Positions 10,244 through 51,368 of a DNA stretch of 64,000 nucleotides are shown piece after piece. The stretch is from Thuidium tamariscinum. Its lineage: Eukaryota > Streptophyta > Bryopsida > Hypnales > Thuidiaceae. Location: positions 27,605,501 to 27,669,500 of the forward strand of contig OX344749.2 of assembly GCA_947034885.2 (NCBI GenBank), read 5' to 3'. A program made the translations under genes and the position numbers. Position 1 is the stretch's first letter, and each line of letters starts with the position of its first letter. The notes under the pieces were generated by a model. The model saw only the letters and a program-made list of their open reading frames with translations, did not search any database and was not told the DNA's origin.

Positions 10244-13200
10244 ATGAATGATCAGAGCTTGTCGTGGAGGTCAGAACCCGAAACCCAGACATCACAGGAA
10301 CTGTTCAAGCGCACAGTTTTCGTGATCAGCCGGACAGAGCGCCTGGCAACCTCTCTAAACTTCAACCATTCCCTGTGCGAGCGGTTCGTGAGCCACTATT
10401 TACGTCGTGCTCGAGAGTTACTGGAGGATCGGAAGGTCGACATTGAAACCTACGGGGAGGAATGTGCCCCCACCTTGGCTGCCCTGTACACCACAGTGAA
10501 GGAAGCCGAGTTTTTGATTCAAAAGCACTGCACCCGGGGCAACTGGATTGAAGCCGCGGTTGAGCTCGTGGAGAATACGTCCGCCTTTGCGGAGGTCATC
10601 CTCGACCTGAAATGGTACATCCATGCCCTTCGTATTTCCATCGAACATGCCTCTGGCACTACGCCCCGGCAGTCGCAACAGAGGCAACAGAGGGTATGGG
10701 ATCTTCAACGCTCCGCCATGGTGGAGTATTCGAATTTCCTTGAGAACTGGGAGCATGAATGCCAGCAGCTGTGTCTTCACAAGGATCGTGAGGTGCTGCT
10801 TTTGAAGCTGAAATCTGGCAGCAGAGATCAGATTTCAGGAATTCGGAGTTTAGACTTGTACTTGGCCCGTAAGCTGTCGCATCAGGACAAGTCTATTCAT
10901 GTGCGAGAAGCGCTGAATGTGGACGTCAGTGCATCTGAGTTGCTGCAGAACAAGGTTTTGTTAGGGGAGGGCGCGTTTGGGAAGGTTTACCAGGTGCAAT
11001 GGCTGGGTATGCAATGTGCTGTGAAGCAGATCGGTGGCAAAACCGCCATCGACGAGGAGGTCAAGATTTTGTCGAAGCTCCATCACCCGAACATCATTCA
11101 GTTGTATGGATACTCTTTAGATCAAGGGACGTTGTATCTGATCATGGAGCTCATGGATAAAACTCTGGGGGAGTACATATATCAGAATCAGCAGGGGGCA
11201 CCCTTTTCTCTCCATGTAGCGCTGGACTCCATGCTGCAAATCGCGAAGGGCATGCGGTATTTGCATAGCAAAGGGATGGCGCACCGGGACCTGAAGGGGG
11301 GCAATGTGCTTGTGAAACCTTGTGGGAATCCTGAGCTTCAGAGAAAAGGCTACTTGTGTGTGAAGCTGACAGACTTTGGGATGGCCAAGGCCAACCTGAG
11401 ATACACGACGTACACACCGCAGTCCATAAACGTGGGCACTCTGGTGTGGAAAGCCCCGGAGCTTTTCAGAGTGTTCCATTCGGAGTATAGTAATAGTGGT
11501 GGCCAGAAGCTGAGAACCCGAAACTACTACCCGTTCAAAGCCGACGTGTACAGCTTCGGTATGGTTTGCTACGAAATTTTGTGCGGGAAGAGACCGTTCT
11601 CGGATGTGCCCTTTGTGACCACGAGCTCGTTTTATGCCAAAGTGAAAAGAGGGGACCGACCGGAGCTACCAGAGTATAAACTTCTCCCAGGGTTGTCCGA
11701 CTACATCAAGAGATGCTGGGATACTGATCCGGTCAGGCGTCCCGACTTTGTCGAAATCTGCAAACGAATTCGCCACTTTCGTGATTCTTTGCTTCAGGTT
11801 ACTGCTTACCAGGGTTGGGAGCTCAAACCTCATGAAGGCACGAGGCCGGTTGTCCAGGCCCCTTCCACCATAGATGAAAATGATATTATAGGTAAATGCG
11901 TCTGCACTAACCTTCTTGGTCAGTTCGTTTGGTCGGAATTATGGTCTGAATGAGTATGTCTCGTGTGCCAGCTTCTTGTATAATTTTGGTGTCTGCTCCA
12001 AGGGGAGAGACTAGCAATGGTTTGCAATTTTGGAAAGTTCTGGAAACCGATGGAAATGAGTCGTGTTTAAAGCCATAGCTGCATGTTAAAGCCTATCATA
12101 TCAATTAATGGATTTGTTTTGTTTTGTAGAATTATGGATGTGGTTTCAGGAAGAGTGGCATTCGAAGATTGTCAATCAGGGGTTTTATTTGTTATCTATG
12201 AGTGAGGATTGTACTTAAGATCGTATGGAATGTGACATTTGAAGATCATAAATTTCTGTTTAGGGTTTAGAGACGCTTGCGATTAGCCGCCTGTCTCTGT
12301 GTACTGACTATTTTCCTGTTGAGATATATTGATTATATTGGTTGCAAGTGGTTGAGGCATCCTGCAGATAGATCTGCGCGTCGTGAAGACTCACTAGGTG
12401 AACTTGTCTATGGGTACAGATGCAGATGATTGGAACTGGGAAATAGAATATAAGGACGTCGTCCGCGGCGACAAACCGATACCTGGAGGCAGCGGCTTTC
12501 ATGCCGTATATCCTGCGTGGTGGAAAAGCTCGGAGCAGGTGCTGGCCAAGTACATAGAGGTCACGCTGATCGACACCGATGACAGAATTGCTAATTTTAA
12601 GCGTGAGGTTGCACTCCTCGTTCGGATGCAGCATCCGAACTTGGTGCATTATTTGGGGGCATCGAGCAAGCCATTCGTGGTCTTCACGGAGCTCGCCAAA
12701 GGAACGATCTTCCTACGCAAGTTCCTGGAGAGGAACACGACAGTGTCGCAGGTGGACGCAGTTCACATTGCGGAGCAAGTGGCCCTGGGGATGGCGTCTT
12801 TGCACGAAGAGGAGGTGACCGTGATCCATGGTGAGCTTTCTCCGGATTGTATACTGATCAACCCACAGACCTTGACTGCAAGGGTGGCTGACTTCGGCTT
12901 GAGGGACTTCAGGAACCCCCCGCTCAAGTGGCAACCACGCTGGTTCCGAGCAGCCCCGGAGCAGCACCACGTCCCGACCTTGCACACCAGCATGGATGTG
13001 TTCTCCTTCGGCATGATTCTGTACGAGCTCCTGGAGCCTGTGAACGCTCATCATTTCTGGAAGAACAAGAAGGCTGCTGAAATTCTCAGGAAGGGCTCTC
13101 GCCCGCCTTTGAAAACTGCGAAGTGCTATCCCAGTGGTATGAAGTCGCTCATGGAGCGGTGCTGGTCACCAGAGCCTGAAAGGCGACCGAGCTTTGGATC

Positions 13201-13318
13201 GATTGTGTCCGAGTTGCAGAAATTGTCAGACAAGCTATCGCGGTCAAAGGCTTCTCATTTATCACGATCGACGAGCTCCAGCAGCAGCAGCAACCATTCC
13301 AGAAATGGGAGACGTTAG
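10244..13318 (+). CDS. Helical N-terminus / kinase / pseudokinase tandem protein (TKL class), two-exon model
   Basis: Exon 1 (10244-11891) starts at ATG, MNDQSLSW. Residues ~15-200 form a helical region resembling the MLKL N-terminal/HeLo-like bundle seen in bryophyte TKL kinases. The kinase domain follows at ~235-515. It has the glycine loop GEGAFGKVY (~240), the lysine in CAVKQIG (~259), HRD with D349, K351 and N354, DFG at 377-379 and an APE motif near 406, so it should be active on Ser/Thr. If unspliced, this ORF ends at 11953. However, a donor G|GTAAAT at 11892 and acceptors after 12419 or 12425 join in phase (G plus AT) to the pseudokinase exon at 12420-13318. The joined protein would have about 848 residues. 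Known plant tandem kinase-pseudokinases act in immunity, so that role is inferred only. The alternative is two separate genes. Confidence 0.7.
12410..13318 (+). CDS. Pseudokinase unit (exon 2 of the tandem kinase, or a separate gene)
   Basis: The unit is about 300 residues and fills one kinase domain. A degenerate glycine loop (GGSGFHAVY) and the lysine in VLAKYIE are present. The catalytic loop reads VIHGELSPD, so HRD has become HGE and the catalytic aspartate is lost. The DFG motif is retained (VADFGLRDF), the APE is intact (RAAPEQ), and the C-lobe RCWSPEPERRPSF is typical of TKL kinases. A serine-rich, basic tail follows. An ATG at 12410 (MGTDADDW) could start an independent protein, because it lies upstream of the proposed acceptors. 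The N-terminal DDWNWEIEY, which begins directly at the domain with no leader, fits better as an internal exon. Phosphotransfer is unlikely; a regulatory or decoy role is inferred. Confidence 0.7.
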   Translation: MGTDADDWNWEIEYKDVVRGDKPIPGGSGFHAVYPAWWKSSEQVLAKYIEVTLIDTDDRIANFKREVALLVRMQHPNLVHYLGASSKPFVVFTELAKGTIFLRKFLERNTTVSQVDAVHIAEQVALGMASLHEEEVTVIHGELSPDCILINPQTLTARVADFGLRDFRNPPLKWQPRWFRAAPEQHHVPTLHTSMDVFSFGMILYELLEPVNAHHFWKNKKAAEILRKGSRPPLKTAKCYPSGMKSLMERCWSPEPERRPSFGSIVSELQKLSDKLSRSKASHLSRSTSSSSSSNHSRNGRR

Positions 13319-29100: not shown

Positions 29101-32100
29101 ATATACGAAGATATTAGCGAAGATACCAAGCTTTGTTTTTGCTATATTGCTTGATTCGCAAATCACTTCACTTTTCAGGTTTGGTTGAATTTCAGCATTA
29201 GCATCATGGTCATTAATAGTGTATTCAATACAAAGCTCTTTAGTTCGAAGGTCTCCAGTGCAATTAGAAGTTGTTCATAGTGGGATATGTCAATGTCTTA
29301 GAAAAAGAGAAGTACGTTTGTAGGCGCTACTAGCAGTTTAGAAGTGTAGGCGCTGCAATTATGTTGGAACGCAATATCAGCATTTCTGTGGTACGATCTT
29401 CAGATTACATTACACATGATATAGGCCAATGAGTTTCTTTGTACTCAACTTGCTTGTGTTTTGCTTGTTTTGGAGCTTTAGGAAGCTGGTCTATTGCGCA
29501 CTGAAAATGAGCAGCTGAAGAAGCAGGTAACGATTTATTTGGAAATTTATTTCTCGACTTTCATTCAGTTTTTGGCAGCGCGGTTTGAGTATTTGGATTT
29601 TGCTGTGTTTAATTGTGCTCGCATGACATTTGCTATGCATAATACTGGTAGAAGTCTGCTTGTGTATGAGCAAGAGTTACGTTGATCTTGACCCATCGAG
29701 TACAATAATGATTAGCATGATCTGATGGCAAGTAAAAATCTACGAATTGCAAGGGTGTTTATTTGATGAGCATTGCTTTGACTTTCTGGAAGAACCGTGC
29801 ACCTTGTTAGATATGAATTGCTTTCATCTGTGGTTTATGTTCGATTTGCTTGCTGAAGAAACACACTCGTTTGCCACTCTTATAGGTTGTCGACCTACGA
29901 GAAGAAGTTCGTCGCACTCAGGTTTGTGGTTGCGTTCGTCCTGTCTCTCTGTAATCCTTCTGCTGCATTCACGACCGTTGTGAATAAACATACGCTGGAA
30001 GAAGCGTTTTTATTTAACTTGAGAGACAAGTGGTGTGTAAGAGGAGTTCTATTAATTTCATCTCACACAAGATAATGTATGAAGCCTGTAGAAATATATT
30101 TGCTTTGATGCGGTGAAGTTAACTTGAACTTCACCGGTTCTCATTTGTGCAGGCCCTGTTTAGAGCTTTAGCTGGAGATCAGCGTGAGGCTTTTAGTACG
30201 TTCAGACCTTCAATTCCGAGGCCCCAGGATCAACGAGGCCGTTATACTTCTGATAACAGAAGACACAACATAGCTCACCATGCCTCACGTCCAGCCCCTC
30301 ATGGGAGTATATTAGATGACCATTTCAGTCTTCAAAGTGGACGATCGACTAGAGAAAGGCCACGGGTTGAGCACCTCTTATTCGAGAGGAATACTGAAGA
30401 CTTCATGTCACGCTCAAATCCACAAGATCAGCAAAATTGGAGGCGATTTGATGGCAGGAACTCAGGAGAGAGTCGTGGATTTGAAAGGGGATTCGTTTTA
30501 CAGGTGCAGCTGGTCATGCTCGTTCACTGAAGATAGTATCGATTTCTATGTCCCTTGATCGTCTTAACTTCTGTTTTTTCATTTGAATAATGTTCTCATG
30601 AGTATACTATGGCAGGATGAAAAGTCATTGAATGGAGCAAAGGTTTTTGACATGGACGCTCAGAGTCAATTACTGCTTGTTTCTGGGAGACCACCGGATT
30701 GCGAGACTAGCTCTGGCTTAACGAAAGTTTGCACCTCCTCTATTCCTGGTCATTTATTTCATCATATTGACGACTTGCAGTTCACTTTGGTTCAGGGTAG
30801 AAGACAATTTTCCCGCCGCCTGGTGGCAGACTAGAATTTTCAATTCTCTGCCCAACTGGTCAAACTCTTCTCTACTTAATACCATATTTCTAATTTTTAG
30901 GGTTTCACTGACGCCTGATGTTGCTTTGCAGATAAATCTATTGGCTTTATCCGAAGGTGAATGTATAAGTCTTCCTTTTGGGACTGGTGCTATTCGTGAC
31001 ATCCGCATTGCTCCCTCTGGAACAAGAGCTCCAGGGAGACTAGCTTTGATCGCTTCCTTAGGCAAGAAGCTCTCTCTTTTTAGGTATTTTTTTCTGCCAT
31101 GGCCATCTCATTACTTTTTTCATGTAGTTTAAAACAATTCCTTTGGTGCTCGATGAGTCATCCTTAAAAATGTCCAATGTCATGCTAATGAATCAAACAG
31201 TAATTTGAAGTTTCCTTGTTATTGCCTTGAATTCTTTCTATTTCTGGTATCATTCAGGAGGATTCTAATTTGTGTTGTGGCAGTTTGGAGAGCAATAATG
31301 TTGTCACATCATGCACGCTTCCGGTGGGACATCATTCAATTCTACTTCTATTAGACATGTTGTCGTTTATATTGCTTCGTTCTCTCAGTGGAAGTCCGTA
31401 ATGTTTCTCCTTCTTTGTTGGGCGCATCTTGGTGCTATTGCGTCTAGTCAGATTACTTTTATTCAAATAGAGTTGTGTGTGCTTCGATATGCTAAGGGTC
31501 TTAATTTTCTCTTGGATGCAGAACCCATCTTGGGCTTGCTCATGGGACCCATGCGATCCTAATCGAGTTTACACCGGCTTGCAGGTCTATGCTTGTTCTA
31601 CTCTCTTTTGTAGGATCATGATTTCCTATCAGAAATATGGTGATAGATTGTTGCTTTGTTTGAATGCCGTTTATTGTGACCATTAATCCTTGTCTGATGT
31701 CTTATTGCGTTGACAGAATGGAACATTGCTTACATTTGATATGCGTCAAACCTCTTCACCACTAGACACCCTCAAGGGTCCGAACTCCACGCCTATACAT
31801 ACTTTACAATATGTTCCTGAGATTGGAAGGATTATCACTCATGACGATGGTATTAGCGGGAGCAGGGGCGGGGGATTGCTGAGCGCATCTTCCAATACAC
31901 TTCTGTTCTGGCCTGCCATTGATCAACCGCAAGAAAAGAGGTTAGTGACTTGAGTTTTTTTCCTAGACGACGAACTTAAAAAATCACATCTTTACAAGTG
32001 TGCTTAAATTACTTGCTATCATTTCTCTTGTCACAATTCACGAATGAGGCCAGTCAGAGCAGAACAGAAGAAATCTGTGGCTAATTACGACGCGTTTTGC

Positions 32101-32733
32101 AGACCGATCTGTATATCTCAACCAGGAGGTTCATCCGTCTGCGTATCAGTCTCCTACAATGCTGCGGTCGATGTAATGGTCGCATCTTTCAGACCCAAGC
32201 CAACCCCGGTGCCCTTGAATGACGGTGCCTCTGCATCCACTCCCTCGACATTTTCACAAGCCGACTGGCCAAGTCAATCCACTTCAAGCCTACTTCCTGA
32301 GTCCGCCCCTACAGCATCTGTTAGTGTTCACGTCCCGACGCACTTTTCCTACGTCCGAGAGTCGAGACCTCCAGTAGACAACAGTACAACGTCAGGAACA
32401 AACAATACTTCATGGGAGCAACGTGGGCCAATGGTGGGGCACAAGAGCCAGGCCGTGCTATCCAGGACTGCAATCGTTAATGAATGGACAGATGGGCGAC
32501 CACCACAACTGGAGGCAGGTGATTCTCGTCAGGGCTGTCTGTTTGCATCCGGAGACGAGGGTAGCAAATCCGTTTGGCTATGGGATTTGGCCTCACCGAC
32601 AGCCAAGCAAATGCTCTCATCGCATCCGTCGCCTGTGCTGGACGTTCGAACAGCGCACGTTGCAGGCGTGGACCTCTTGGGGTGCATCAGTGAGCGAACG
32701 TTGCAGCTCTACAGGAGATCATTGTATAGGTAG
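26147..32733 (+). CDS. RFWD3: RFWD3-type E3 ubiquitin ligase (RING, coiled coil, WD40), multi-exon
   Basis: Start is ATG 26147 (MKEDGEIAG). Exons: 26147-26381, ~26808-26889, 26933-27273, 27484-27639, 27775-28017, 28119-28239, 28506-28584, 28757-28855, 29482-29526, 29886-29921, 30153-30503, 30616-30726, possibly 30781-30795, 30932-31083, 31284-31323, 31522-31584, 31717-31940, 32103-32733. Most junctions are GT-AG and phase-consistent; the 26889/26933 join would create TGA, so that intron is unresolved. The acidic N-terminus holds a SIM-like patch (ETIELSEDDVD). The RING runs CPICMEPW...HRIC...CGH...CIKRW...CPHC, followed by NKRARAEDLRTLYV, the RFWD3 signature. Then come a short coiled coil (TENEQLKKQ, DLREEVRR), an arginine-rich linker and WD40 strands (AKVFDMDAQSQ, WACSWDPCD, VWLWDLAS). 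Total is ~1000 residues. In animals RFWD3 ubiquitinates RPA/RAD51 at stalled forks in the nucleus; the same role is inferred. Confidence 0.88.
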
Positions 32734-36272: not shown

Positions 36273-39200
36273 AGGCAGGCAAGTATCCTGATGCTTCACT
36301 TGAAGGTTACACTTGGAGGTCTATAACTCTGTATTCTTGTGAGCATTTCAGTAAGCCGCACATGAATATTGGAACAATTGGACATGTGGACCATGGAAAG
36401 ACTACTCTCACAACAGCAATTACCAAGGTCAGTTTGCCTCAATTTCACTTCGTCCATTGTTTTCTGAGATTGCCTCACAAGGTATTGCTAATTTTAGATT
36501 GAAATAACTAGAGTTGTAGAAAACTTTCGATCGAGTCTTTGTTCATGTTTGTTTTGAGCAGGTTTTGGCTGACAAGGGTATGGCTAAGTCAATTGCGTTC
36601 GATGAGATCGACAAAGCTCCAGAGGAAAAGCAACGGGGTATCACCATTGCCACTGTAAGCTCTTCTTAGTTTCCTTTTCGAGAATCTGTTCTTAGGAACT
36701 CCCAGAGTACTCAAGCTGATCTCACGAAGTACATTCTTCAACTTTTTATATCAAGATCGCTTAGCTCAAGTCTTTATTCTTACTAGTTGGTGTTACTTAT
36801 TTGGTGTAGGCGCATGTTGAGTACGAAACAGAGAAACGTCACTACGCCCATGTTGATTGGCCAGGGCACACTAATTACATGAAGGTAAGGTTCATAGTTC
36901 TATTCTACCGATTCCAGATTTTGCTTTCTTCCTTTTGGTCACTTGACCCGCTTACTTATAGTGAATCTTTCACTAGTAGAAATCTGTGTTTGCCTCAACA
37001 AAATCTACTTGACGTGTTTGTTGAGGCAAACGCAAAAACTGCGTTTTCTACGTTTTTCAACGCAGTTTTTGCGTTTGCCTCAACAAACATGTCAAGTAGA
37101 TTTTGTTGAGGCAAACGCAGATTTCTACTAGTGTCTTGAAGAGGATGAGGCTGATGTATTACAGTTTGCTCTTGCAGAATATGATTACAGGTGCTGCACA
37201 AATGGATGTGGGATTCTTGTTGTTTCAGCACCAGATGGGCCTATGCCCCAGACTAAAGAACATATCCTTTTAGCTCGGCAGGTTGGTAGATATTCTCGAA
37301 CCAATTTTTTTGAAGTTGTCATTTTAACGTCGAAGGTGTTTTCCTCGTCATAAGGTTCTGCAACTACTTCCAATACATTAGAAGAGTACGATGAGGTCTC
37401 AAGTTTTCACTTCTGTGGCAAATACGGCAGGTCGGAGTTCCATTGTTGGTGGTTTTCTTGAACAAAGTGGATGTAAGTTGTGGAAGACGAGGAGTTGTTG
37501 GAGCTTGTGGAGATGGAGTTGCGTGGTAAGCTTATAGAGCTAGCTTTGAGTATCCACCGAAGTTCTGGAAATTTTGTGGAACTTTCTCTAAACTACTGAT
37601 GTTTTTGTAGAGTTGTTGTCATTCTACAAGTTTCCAGTCAATGATATTCCTATCGTTAGAGGCTCAGCTCTCGCTGCATTGCAAGGGACAAATGAAGAGC
37701 TTGGAAAGAAGTTGATTTTGAAGTTGATGGAAGCCGTAGACTCGTACATCCCTGAATCCAAGCGCAATCTCGAGAAACCCTTCATTATGCCAATTGAGGA
37801 TGTATTCTCTATCCAAGAGAGATTAACTATTAGGCTCCAGATTACATAGTAGAGGCGCAAGTTCCTAGCAGTTTGTCATTTTATCGATTTTTGAGTGTAG
37901 TCGTTTTGAAATAATTGATGGCTAAGGCCATATTGAGCATTCTCTATGTTGACATTGTTTATTTCTAAACAAAGATTTTGTGACACAGGAAGACTGAACT
38001 CTAGCCATGAGACGAGTATATCTATCAGACGAGTTTATTTCTTGTGATTAGGGTCGCGGTACTGTGGTAACAGGACGTGTGGAGCAAGGCGTAGCCAAAG
38101 TGGGCGAGGAAGTCGAAGTTGTTGTACTACGCTCGGTATACATACTACTTATATTTCTCTCATTTATATTCCTTCTAAATGTTTACCTTTCAGACTCTGC
38201 CGAAGAACTTTCTCTGACTTTCTTCATGTATTGCAGGGCCGAAACCCCAAGACAACTGTCACTGGTGTTGAAATGTTCAAGAAACAATTGGATCAAGGAT
38301 AGGTTTTGTTCTTATTGGAGCCTTCTCATACTTTGGTCGGTCGGTTTTTGTGGCTGAGATATGTATAGCAGATCTGTTAATCTGACTTGAGATGGGTTTC
38401 TCCAAAGTATTCTGATTGTAATTTTTTTGCTAACTTGTATTTAGTGAAGTCTACCGAGTTGGCTTATGAAGGACTCATATTAGGACTTTTACAGCTACGA
38501 TCTTTTCGATAGTTATTCCTTCAGTACAAATATTTGTTCGAGCAGGGTTATGTCTTGAATTTGTTATTGAAATTCAGGGGGTTTCCTGATACAGGCAGGA
38601 GACAACATAAGTCTTCTGATTCGTGGACTTAAGCGAGATGAAGTGCAGCGTGGTCAGGTGAGATACTATTTCATCATTGGCATTTTCTACGACTCAAAAT
38701 AACAGGCAGAACCCCAAATTTTCTTCGAAATCAACTTGATACTTTGGCAATCTGATTGTGACATTACAAAGGATCGTATTTGTTGAAATTATTTCATTGA
38801 ATTTATTTATTTTTCTATTTGTCGTGTATTGGTGGTGTGCAGGTCATGTGCAAGCCTGGTATAGTCAAGACGAGCACAAAGTTCGAAGTAGAGGTTTACA
38901 TTCTTACCAAGGAAGAGGGAGGCCGACATACTGCCTTCTTTTCTAACTACAGACCCCAGTTCTACTTACGTAGTACTGATGTCACTGGAAAGGTAGAGCT
39001 TCCAGAGCACATCAAGATGGTCATGCCTGGAGACAATTTGACTGCCCAATTCGAACTAATCATTCCTTGCCCCCTTGAACATGGTAAGCTTCCTTCTCCT
39101 TGTTTGGCAGAAACTCACTTTGCGAAGCTGACTTTACTGTACAGTATATTGTACACTGTTTTGTTATCTGAAACTCCTTATTATCCTGTTTAGTACAATT

Positions 39201-39305: not shown

Positions 39306-47180
<7,875 letters not shown>

Positions 47181-50100
47181 TTATTATCAAAAAATACAAT
47201 TGTAGAATCAATTCATAATACTCCATCATCATCAACTTCACTTCTACCTATAGAACAAGTTGTATCACCACCAATCCATGCATATTTGAATAATGAAATT
47301 ACAAATTTGCATTGTATTAAACATCATTCAAATCTTAATTCATCCATTAGTCTCCAAGAAAAAAATCAAATGAATTTGGATACAATACTAAATAAAAAGA
47401 AAAAATATAATACAAGATCTACAAATTTGCCAAAAGATCTTACATTTACAAGTGATGCAAGTGTGAACAATTTACCTCAAGAAATAACTAGTCATGTTAT
47501 ATCATGGCCAAATTCTCATAGAAGAAAAAGAACCCATATTTCAAAACCCTTGTATATAGCTAAAAATTTAAGCAAATCCTTATTTAATGAAGGCCCAACA
47601 AACAAAAGAGCAAGAACACCTCTTTCTAATTCTCCATCGTCACCTTCCCATCAATCACCAGTAGAAACTCGTACACAATCACCCTTACCAATTGTGCATC
47701 AACTTCAAACTAGCCTTGTTAATGTCTCAAATACTAGTCAAAGTGAAGATATACTAGATTCAAATGATACATCTTTTATTTCTAAAATTCCTCTAACTTT
47801 TTCTAATTATGTTGAAGAGATAAACGACGTTATGGATATTTCAATAGATGATTATGATATTCATGAAATATCAAGGCAATATACTACAAGTACCCATTCT
47901 ATGGTTTCTCTTCCGTTACATATTGAACATGCTAACCAATCTTTTAGTGAAGACTTTAGTAATAAAAGTAACCTTGAAAGTAATTCAAATGAAATGGGTA
48001 TTGAAAAAATTGATAAAGTTCAATGGATTTCTTTTGTTGAAATGATGAATGATTCTAGCAAAAAAGGATTCGTAATCGAAAAAACAAACAATGATGCAAT
48101 AATAACTCAACCAAACTTTGGAGAAACTAATATAACTTTAGGAGATTCCATTGATAAAATAACAAATGATGTTACTGAAGAAACAAACAATGAAACTTCC
48201 TTACTTGAAATGATGAATGATGATTCCTTACTTGAAATGATGAATGATGACGTAGAAGGTCTTACATTAGAAGAAACAAATGATGATTCAAAAACAACTC
48301 AAAAACATCAAGAAAAGTTGACAAGTGAATTATTAGGAGTACATATGAAGAAAAAAAATTGGGTGGCAATATTACCTAGGTCACTTTATAAGGGTGGTAA
48401 ATATTGGGCCCTTGGCCAATATGCAACTGCTGAAGCGGCTGCTAGGGTACGAGACTTGGTAGCTCTTAAAATAAGAAAACACAAGGATGAAAAATTTGAA
48501 TTAAATTTTCCTTTATCTGATTATAGTGATGACTTAATAGAAATGAGAAATTGGAATAAAAGAGATTATATATGGTCACTTTATAGACAATCATCAGCAT
48601 TTAAAGCAGGGGATACTGGTTTTAAGTGTATTTATCTCATAAAAAATAACAAAAAACCTCAAATGTGGGAAGGAAAAATATGTAATGTTGGTGGAAAATT
48701 GAAAGGATACAAAAATATTGTACATGTTGACAAAAATCCAATAAAAGAAATTCCTGCTATATTTTGTGATCTTGTAAATTTGCATCTCCATGGATGGGAA
48801 TATATGACTAATTTTCGTCCCGGACTATATAGTAAATCTGATGTCAAAGACTTTATAGCTTTGCTTGAAAAAAAAGAACAGAAAAAAGCATATGAATGGG
48901 ATCTTATTAAACGGGTACTACTAGAGCCTTTGCCATTTAATAGTTACATAGAGAATCCTACATTGATAAAAAGAAATGAATCTAACAATTCTAGTGCTAA
49001 AATAGTGCCAAAAAAATTCTTAGGAGTATCTTGTATAAGAAGCAAATATTGGAAAGCAACCATGGTTAATCCAAATAGTAGAAACAATGCAAGGTGGACC
49101 ATTGGACATTACGCAACTAACGAAGAAGCTGCTAAGGTTCAAGATTTAATAGCTCTAAAATTAAACTATCATAAAGACAACCAAAATTATCATTTCAATT
49201 TTCCTATATCTGATTATAATGATGATTTACAAGAAATGAAAAATTGGAGTGAGACGGATTATATTTGGTCATTGAGAAGACAATCTTTGGCCTTTTCTGA
49301 GAACGAATCAAGTTTAAGATGTGTCAAGTCTTCTAATAATATTGAAGGAAAAAACAAAGACACCAAAGATTTATGGGAAGGATGTGTTATAAACCATGGA
49401 GGAAAAGTAAAAGGATTTGAAAGTACAATAATCATTGGTCCATATGACACTAAAGAAGTACCTGCAATATTTTGCGACCTCATAAATTTGTATATAAAAG
49501 GTTGGAATTATATGACAAATTTCCGCCCTGGACATTATTCTCAAGCATATGTAGAAAATTTTGTATCCCTTCTTCAAAAACATCAACAAGATGAAGCATG
49601 TGAATGGAAACTTATCAAACAAATATTAGCAAAGCCACTTCCTTCTATAATTTACATTAAAAATTCTTCAAGTGAAAAGATTGGTGAATCAAATACACTC
49701 CATTTTGATGACATACAAGCCAATGATAATAATATAAATGGAAGTCTTCCAAATCTAGTTCAAAATAATGTACATGAAAAAAATAATATTTTGGATCTAG
49801 ACATTGACAATTTAATACAAGACAATATACAGTTTGAAGAAAATAGGTTAGACATTAGTTTTGACAATTTGAAAAAATTTGATATCAACACTAACCAAAA
49901 TTCCAATGCAAAAGTGCAACCAAGAGATATGGCTAAATTTTTCATTGAATGTCCTTGGGAACAACTTGATGCTTTATGGGCATTAGTTAAAAAATCTAGT
50001 GGTGGTTGTGATTTGGACTTTGAAAACTTTCTTCTTGGAAAGTATGGAGCTTCAACTTGGTCACCATCTGATATCAAATCAAATGATTTTGAATGCAAAC

Positions 50101-51368
50101 AAAATAAAGAATACAAGTTCTATTTTCCATGTGTCATTGCTACAACTTCTACTGAAATGAATATACAAAGACGCATTCTTGGATTAGATTATTTTCAATA
50201 CAAAATGAACTTGTCTTATACTTTCATTGAAGATATTCAAAAGCAATGGGTGAACGTTCCAAACATTAGATATTTAGAAATAAGCTTCACTAATATTATT
50301 GCTAGTGATGGTGGACTTCTTGTTGTAAAAGGAGGAAAGCAATCACCTCAATTGAGTAATGAAATGAACCCAATGGATAACTTATTTGCAACTTATAACC
50401 ATTATTGGGCAATGAATGATTACATTAAAGTTAAAAATCAATCTATGATTATTGTAACAAATCCCCTCACTGAGGAAATCAAATTGTTGCCTCCAATTCC
50501 ACAAAAAGTATTACATAAAATAATTGCTCGATTAAGCTTCTATGATAGTGAAAGAACAACTTATCGCTTAATTTTGATAGGAACTTGTCATTGTGAGGAA
50601 GAAGTGGTACAAGAAAATATAGAAACAATGAAAAATGTAGAGCTTGCATTGGTAGTGTATTGCTCTATAAAGAATTCTTGGGTGCATTTTGATAAAGTTT
50701 TAAATGCAGCTCCACCTTCTAAAACATTAGGACTTCCTACTCTTGTTTTTCATAAGTATTCTATTTATTATGGTGGTGTACAAATTCACCCTCAATTGGG
50801 AAGAGAACCAATTTCAAAACCAGTTATAATCTATTTCAATACACACATTTCTCGAAGACAAAAATTGATCATTGATTTTGCTGAAGCAGGAAAGTCTTAT
50901 TCCGTAAATGTTGTTGAACCACCAAAACTTGTTCAAATAGGCTTCAATGCAAAGATTTATGCGGTAACTCGGGAAGCACAATTTCAAAAAGCAATAGACA
51001 CATTATTTATCATTGAAGTTGTTGTAAATACAGATGGTACTCCTACAGGTTCTTATAAGGTATTGTCAGAAGGTGTCATGCCCAAGACAATGTACTCACT
51101 ATTATTTAGAAAGACCAATATGAATGAAGATGAAGTATCAATGAATAATAGTGACAATTTGTCTCCATGGGAAGCAATGGGGAGTGCTAGTGATATAGCC
51201 ATTAAAGTTATTGGCTCTGATCCAATGATTGCTCTCTACAATGTTCAAGATGGACATTGGAATTATTCCTATTTTCCATATTTTGAACGTTCTAGAAAAT
51301 CCTCCAATTATGAAGCATGGAGATTAATTCCAGGAGTTTATGAACCAAGATGGAATGCAATGCCATAG
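47181..51368 (+). CDS. Double AP2-like protein fused to an F-box-associated/kelch-like C-terminus
   Basis: One exon is open from 47181, directly after an acceptor-like TATTTTAG, to the stop at 51368. The first ATG is at 47370, but coding-like sequence (SSSTSLLPIEQVV) precedes it, so an upstream exon is likely. Residue numbers count from 47286. An Asn/Ser-rich N-terminus (1-345) includes a short duplication of SLLEMMNDD. AP2-like domain 1 is ~350-412 (W-V-A-I-L, WALGQYATAEAAARVRD, LNFP) and AP2-like domain 2 is ~577-643 (YWKATM, WTIGHYATNEEAAKVQD, FNFP). Each is followed by an E-M-x-N-W...DYIWSL-R-Q-S segment, like the ANT/AP2 linker, then a repeated WEG module (~459-550, ~695-785). The C-terminus (~940-1355) resembles F-box-associated/kelch domains (IIVTNPLTEEIKLLPPIP, LALVVYCSIKNSWVHFD), but no F-box is seen. 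It is very AT-rich, like its surroundings. Possible roles are DNA binding or a degradation adaptor; both are inferred. Confidence 0.72.
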   Translation, partial: LLSKNTIVESIHNTPSSSTSLLPIEQVVSPPIHAYLNNEITNLHCIKHHSNLNSSISLQEKNQMNLDTILNKKKKYNTRSTNLPKDLTFTSDASVNNLPQEITSHVISWPNSHRRKRTHISKPLYIAKNLSKSLFNEGPTNKRARTPLSNSPSSPSHQSPVETRTQSPLPIVHQLQTSLVNVSNTSQSEDILDSNDTSFISKIPLTFSNYVEEINDVMDISIDDYDIHEISRQYTTSTHSMVSLPLHIEHANQSFSEDFSNKSNLESNSNEMGIEKIDKVQWISFVEMMNDSSKKGFVIEKTNNDAIITQPNFGETNITLGDSIDKITNDVTEETNNETSLLEMMNDDSLLEMMNDDVEGLTLEETNDDSKTTQKHQEKLTSELLGVHMKKKNWVAILPRSLYKGGKYWALGQYATAEAAARVRDLVALKIRKHKDEKFELNFPLSDYSDDLIEMRNWNKRDYIWSLYRQSSAFKAGDTGFKCIYLIKNNKKPQMWEGKICNVGGKLKGYKNIVHVDKNPIKEIPAIFCDLVNLHLHGWEYMTNFRPGLYSKSDVKDFIALLEKKEQKKAYEWDLIKRVLLEPLPFNSYIENPTLIKRNESNNSSAKIVPKKFLGVSCIRSKYWKATMVNPNSRNNARWTIGHYATNEEAAKVQDLIALKLNYHKDNQNYHFNFPISDYNDDLQEMKNWSETDYIWSLRRQSLAFSENESSLRCVKSSNNIEGKNKDTKDLWEGCVINHGGKVKGFESTIIIGPYDTKEVPAIFCDLINLYIKGWNYMTNFRPGHYSQAYVENFVSLLQKHQQDEACEWKLIKQILAKPLPSIIYIKNSSSEKIGESNTLHFDDIQANDNNINGSLPNLVQNNVHEKNNILDLDIDNLIQDNIQFEENRLDISFDNLKKFDINTNQNSNAKVQPRDMAKFFIECPWEQLDALWALVKKSSGGCDLDFENFLLGKYGASTWSPSDIKSNDFECKQNKEYKFYFPCVIATTSTEMNIQRRILGLDYFQYKMNLSYTFIEDIQKQWVNVPNIRYLEISFTNIIASDGGLLVVKGGKQSPQLSNEMNPMDNLFATYNHYWAMNDYIKVKNQSMIIVTNPLTEEIKLLPPIPQKVLHKIIARLSFYDSERTTYRLILIGTCHCEEEVVQENIETMKNVELALVVYCSIKNSWVHFDKVLNAAPPSKTLGLPTLVFHKYSIYYGGVQIHPQLGREPISKPVIIYFNTHISRRQKLIIDFAEAGKSYSVNVVEPPKLVQIGFNAKIYAVTREAQFQKAIDTLFIIEVVVNTDGTPTGSYKVLSEGVMPKTMYSLLFRKTNMNEDEVSMNNSDNLSPWEAMGSASDIAIKVIGSDPMIALYNVQDGHWNYSYFPYFERSRKSSNYEAWRLIPGVYEPRWNAMP

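Follow-up and report, generated by a model that had tools for sequence, protein, structure and literature searches.

F-box proteins and AP2 factors are among the largest plant regulatory families. AP2-class factors such as AINTEGUMENTA and WRINKLED1 (WRI1) carry two AP2 repeats and a conserved linker. In NLR receptors, as far as the available parts of one survey go, AP2 or kelch domains are integrated as separate additions (PMC5819176), and the accessible parts of the open-licence PubMed Central literature yielded no description of an AP2-propeller fusion. The term AP2 occurs 0 times in the available main text of F-box surveys, including Physcomitrella (PMC3030570, PMC3719486); because such surveys start from the F-box, they could miss a gene of the type described here, which has none. 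The gene lies in a 64,000-nucleotide stretch of the Thuidium tamariscinum genome (contig OX344749.2, positions 27,605,501 to 27,669,500; "the window"), in an open frame at 47181-51368. As predicted, it places the recognition domain of an F-box protein, without the F-box, behind a double-AP2 array, and it belongs to a family with three or more members. On alignment it is a fusion gene specific to its lineage, and the genome has yielded three such genes. We are highly confident of its architecture and ancestry, namely AP2-AP2 cassettes and an F-box-protein C-terminus.

The frame (plus strand, as are all window features below) is open for 1,395 codons, and the chance of such a length at its own composition is about 3e-53; the long gene frame noted in a preliminary description of this DNA is real. 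Each of the four parts measured has a low third-position guanine-plus-cytosine (GC) content (0.16-0.22), which points to one codon style across the gene. The preliminary description had counted two AP2-like repeats, each with an AINTEGUMENTA-like linker, and a separate "WEG" module of about 90 residues after each. Both linkers stand; the repeat count does not, since the gene has two cassettes and each holds two AP2-derived repeats, four in all. Cassette 1 consists of AP2 repeat 1 (48330..48518; Pfam AP2, alignment and predicted structure), an inter-AP2 linker (48519..48602), a degenerate AP2 repeat 2 (48618..48833; alignment and predicted structure) and a tail with helices in the model (48834..48935). 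Cassette 2 has the same parts: AP2 repeat 1 at 49017..49211, with the best Pfam AP2 stretch at residues 578-627, the linker at 49212..49295, the degenerate repeat 2 at 49311..49541 (the last two by alignment) and the helical tail at 49542..49643. The two cassettes are 46% identical over 218 amino acids (E 3e-73). The linker, present twice, aligns with the one between the AP2 repeats of WRI1, and both tails are shared with the paralogues L037 and L038 and with the metagenomic protein P0003, introduced below. Each WEG stretch, neither of which has a Pfam match at E≤10, proved to be the repeat 2 of its cassette plus the helical tail; the repeat-2 alignment and the predicted fold rule out AP2 and WEG as independent modules. 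Two AP2 repeats with a conserved linker are thus present as in AINTEGUMENTA and WRI1, and the AP2-class origin suggested earlier is borne out by that linker and by Pfam AP2 matches below threshold. Structure prediction returned the AP2 fold over both repeats, at modest confidence. Besides AP2, the Pfam scan of the protein gave one chance-level match.

The C-terminal part (49920..51365) is an F-box-protein-type domain, probably a beta-propeller, identified through its kinship with F-box/propeller proteins that the genome also encodes. The preliminary description had called it F-box-associated (FBA)/kelch-like, citing the motif NPLTEEIKLLPPIP, which is found at 50460-50501. At the Pfam level that match failed: the C-terminus has 0 Pfam families at E≤10, so no FBA, kelch or propeller model. 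The kinship with F-box proteins was recovered, though solely in profile-profile comparison. A family profile of 10 rows matched four F-box/propeller-type frames at 99.4% in hhalign (E 5.2e-22, 301 columns, 12% identity), with intermediates included in both profiles. A strict test, setting five fusion-clade rows against 10 tail frames (seven with an F-box, two with a propeller match only and one without a Pfam match), still gave 96.2% (E 2.7e-9, score 76.2, 110 columns, 24% identity); no score above 26.5 arose in 50 column shuffles, and a kinase profile scored 14.9. At the profile level, then, the predicted C-terminal domain is homologous to F-box/propeller proteins. Because its structure model failed, we infer the propeller fold, with its blade number, from this homology. 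The C-terminal profile matched no solved structure at E≤1. A Foldseek search with the poor model gave a best E of 0.012 and none at 0.001; propellers, including FBXW8 and Keap1, were among the best 50 of 351 rows, which we do not count as proof, the query model being poor.

The F-box itself is missing, as the preliminary description had stated: Pfam finds none at E≤10, and the F-box-free lead-in of the domain (49920-50243; seven rows) reached only 0.3% in hhalign against three F-box stretches. Among 17 frames scanned with Pfam, the fusion genes L037 and L038 included, an F-box was found in seven, above the cut-off in L047, L023 and L028 and just below it (E 0.0007-0.0022) in L048, L033, L034 and L035. 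Several of the seven also match KIB1-4 or At3g26010-like propeller models.

The architecture is not confined to the window. A search of the same genome with the C-terminus gave 28 matches from 26 scored candidates, headed by the window gene, then L037 and L038 (59-61%), then L039, L040, L041 and L043 (23-33% in alignment), then a weak tail. L037 (contig C7, 1,223 codons) and L038 (contig C9, 1,286 codons) each carry one cassette and the same C-terminus in a single frame. Of 3,272 candidates in a protein search with the C-terminus, three proved to be relatives at E≤10, each of them from the Joint Genome Institute: P0002 (83% identical, 305 amino acids, from another assembly), P0003 (49%, 536 amino acids, metagenomic) and P0004 (36% in the search, 529 amino acids). 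Relatives were found with the C-terminus only; protein searches with residues 340-1360 or with the cassettes alone gave nothing. P0003 starts inside AP2 repeat 2 and continues via the helical tail into the C-terminus, so an independent assembly has the fusion junction too. This protein groups with P0002, L037, L038 and the window gene in a single clade (100/100). These alignments show that the predicted architecture recurs, with three genes and an independent metagenomic protein having it; the earlier suggestion of a local, captured-domain mosaic is not supported, the architecture being present in two more genes and another assembly. Standard Pfam annotation misses the family because both halves lie below its cut-offs, and relatives elsewhere may therefore be unannotated.

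Other relatives of the C-terminal domain have a variety of settings. The cassette profile has no match in the 6.5-9 kb around L039, L040, L041 and L043. About 345 kb away from the window gene, its contig also carries L041 (C1:27301001-27310000), an intron-split relative without AP2. In the 1,051-codon AT-rich frame of L040 (3094-6246, plus strand), the domain follows an N-terminus of another kind, long and acidic, that has no AP2 match. In L042 (C6:22198001-22204500) the relative extends over three successive frames with stops between them, as might be expected of a decayed copy or an unusual gene. Coding GC is 0.30-0.31 in the fusion genes and L040, 0.51-0.58 in the AP2-only relatives and 0.49-0.50 in the F-box relatives L047 and L048.

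The cassettes were searched for in the same genome as well, and 11 places were found, the cassettes of the fusion genes accounting for four. Five of the other seven were read. L072 is canonical and WRI1-like; the others, L069, L070, L071 and L073, are divergent double-AP2 genes, each standing alone in a single frame. The linker and repeat 2 of these four have features in common with the fused cassettes but not with WRI1, which makes them the likely source group, though the cassette tree, having no outer group, cannot prove it. In that tree cassette 2 falls outside a group of cassette 1, L037 and L038 (87/89), but by the approximately unbiased test a sister relation of cassettes 1 and 2 is not rejected (p 0.099). 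L071 (C9:20827401-20829000) lies about 45 kb from the fusion gene L038 on C9, possibly near the place where the fusion arose. A viral origin was rejected on comparing the C-terminal alignment with viral contigs, where 55 stretches matched by pattern and none encoded a relative. Nor did we find signs of capture by a mobile element, there being no direct repeats of at least 60 nucleotides in 38-60 kb, where smaller or decayed ends would be missed.

The fusion genes are under selection against amino-acid change. The ratio of nonsynonymous to synonymous substitution rates (dN/dS), which the preliminary description had proposed as a check, is below 1: by NG86 it is 0.36-0.41 among the three C-termini, 0.40-0.59 among the cassettes and 0.38-0.40 between cassettes 1 and 2. 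With AT-rich codons and a high dS, near saturation, dS is probably underestimated.

A start upstream of the long frame, near 46360, is probable for the window gene: in each paralogue an exon with an ATG precedes the long frame, and a weak counterpart of this exon can be seen in the window. The stretch common to L037 and L038 (132 columns, 81% identical) reads as an ATG exon and ends at a GT 828 and 852 nucleotides, respectively, before the long frames. In the window, the resembling stretch is 46381-46458, with tblastn E values of 0.007 and 0.057, and its frame opens with the ATG at 46360. The probable exon 1 is thus predicted at 46360..46465, with an uncertain donor (46465 or 46422, among others), and the long exon, with the stop codon, at 47206..51368, its start being 47206 or 47181 according to which acceptor candidate is used. 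Thirteen splice pairs, including 46465/47205 and 46422/47180, leave exon 1 and the long frame open. A first guess, an exon 1 with its ATG at 46806, was dropped; it is 46360 that resembles the exon of the paralogues.

Two features stand out between this start and the cassettes. A basic block with KR-rich ends (SHRRKRTH...NKRARTP; 47514..47621), conserved in L037 and L038 in the N-terminal alignment, resembles a nuclear-localisation signal and may act as one. An acidic-hydrophobic motif, S(F/L)xEMMND, defined after inspection of the sequence and not beforehand, occurs three times in the window gene (48030..48251), once in L037 and three times in L038; it is activation-domain-like, with a putative function to match. 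Its copies in the window gene lie at 48030-48053 and in a tandem repeat at about 48198-48251, where a perfect 27-nucleotide duplication within the coding sequence repeats the motif as SLLEMMNDD, a sign, it would seem, of recent motif gain.

Taken together, these parts suggest how the protein might work. It would be nuclear, with an acidic N-terminus whose motifs would recruit the transcription machinery. The two AP2-linker-AP2 cassettes (one in each of L037 and L038) derive from AINTEGUMENTA/WRI1-class factors, and the array would attach either to DNA, with an altered specificity, or to other proteins. The C-terminal propeller, without an F-box and freed from the SCF ubiquitin ligase, would hold a partner protein. 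For such a transcription-linked adaptor mechanism we see an even chance; that the protein regulates transcription is something we infer. If working, it shows a degradation receptor turned into a transcription-linked adaptor. A more novel reading, which we think less likely than not, is a possible new class of nuclear regulator in plants, arising when an F-box-protein propeller, off ubiquitination, was joined to an AP2-AP2 array. A former degradation target would then be delivered to transcription targets or held away from them; the array would have doubled within the window gene, and the class would predate the split from the genome of P0003.

Several results weigh against the adaptor mechanism. 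The two Pfam AP2 stretches reach E 9.3e-6 and 26.3 bits, below the curated cut-off of 33.3, and L037 and L038 have no Pfam AP2 match even at E≤10. The cassette model has a mean predicted local distance difference test (pLDDT) score of 51.7, with residues 79-140 below 50, and the failed C-terminal model one of 36.6. The N-terminus drifts except for the basic block and the acidic motif (NG86 dN/dS 0.49-0.83 among the fusion genes), and between the cassettes LWL85 gives 0.38/0.63, about 0.60, a weaker signal than NG86. Moreover, the first AP2 strands read IYRGVTRHRWTGRYEAHLW in the canonical L072, and LLGVHMKKKNWVAIL, FLGVSCIRSKYWKATM, PIGVHLIKGKVWQATL and FKGIYKVKGGWQVTL in the fused cassettes. 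Of the arginines and lysines of these strands, which include residues taken to touch DNA, the canonical arginines are replaced in all four fused cassettes compared with L072, and lysines are kept. The available parts of PMC8218904 give no DNA-contact residues. The arginine loss read earlier from the sequence is hence borne out, and because of it DNA binding may be lost. A fair doubt thus attaches to DNA binding by the fused cassettes, which may instead bind in an altered way.

The lost arginines bear on both main rivals. The protein could be a decoy, whose propeller competes with F-box relatives for their substrates and so protects them, the cassettes merely placing it in the nucleus or dimerising it. 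It has propeller kin with an F-box in the same genome and none of its own, and loss of the contact arginines would suit such a role; however, the distance from the F-box members (hhalign identity 12%, and 24% over 110 columns) makes common substrates unlikely, and the cassettes are constrained too. We regard the decoy as unlikely, though deserving of attention. The other main rival, a sequence-specific transcription factor with a new DNA motif and the propeller as an ordinary interaction tail, gains from the AP2 fold predicted over both repeats, the lysines kept in the DNA-facing strands and the acidic motifs, but must accommodate the replacement of the canonical reading-face arginines in every cassette compared; we think it rather unlikely.

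The remaining alternatives concern whether there is one gene, a live one, without an F-box. Decay to a functionless copy would fit the fast N-terminus and dS estimates near saturation, and is improbable given three long frames without a stop, the constrained C-termini and P0002, 83% identical in another assembly. An SCF receptor whose F-box is too divergent to detect would have it in the lead-in, which sits at the F-box position of the relatives and is helical in the poor model; the hhalign and Pfam results reject a hidden F-box there and leave this reading very improbable. Two adjacent genes or an assembly chimera taken as one is scarcely credible, and we reject it: L037 and L038, which lie on other contigs, each have these parts in the same order within a single frame, and P0003 crosses the junction. 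The preliminary description was thus right to read one gene here.

Elsewhere in the window, frames encode two protein kinases (10244-11953 and 12398-13318), an RFWD3-like WD40 stretch below its cut-off (32044-32733) and an EF-Tu C-terminal domain stretch (38819-39193).

Compared with known systems, the window gene differs from the WRINKLED1/AINTEGUMENTA-class AP2 factors (7wq5; here L072) in its doubled cassette, its lost DNA-reading arginines, the helical tail after repeat 2 and the fused F-box-protein-type domain. The stand-alone L069, L070, L071 and L073 resemble the fused cassettes in the linker (D)(F/Y)(L/I/V)W, a repeat 2 ending in TNFRP.xY and their single frames; unlike the window gene, they have no C-terminal domain match nearby and a coding GC of 0.51-0.54 against 0.31, and three of the four are nearer the AP2 consensus. 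The F-box proteins with a KIB1-4, At3g26010-like or kelch propeller (L047, L048, L023, L028 and L033-L035) share W..LP.L.YLP, GGL, NPLT...LPP and Y.V..G with the window C-terminus, in the same order, whereas the window gene is without the F-box, is about 12-24% identical in the aligned part and has AP2 cassettes in front. The F-box-less relatives P0004, L039, L040, L041 and L043 retain the C-terminal domain in full or for the most part, at 23-34% identity, but, unlike the window gene, no AP2 cassette in the 529 amino acids of P0004 or in the 6.5-9 kb around the others. The NLR receptors, in the parts of PMC5819176 available, bring AP2 and kelch into fusion proteins, as here; in the window gene the two types are joined to each other, and no NLR part was found. 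What is predicted here is a new combination of known domains, kept as a family of at least three genes.

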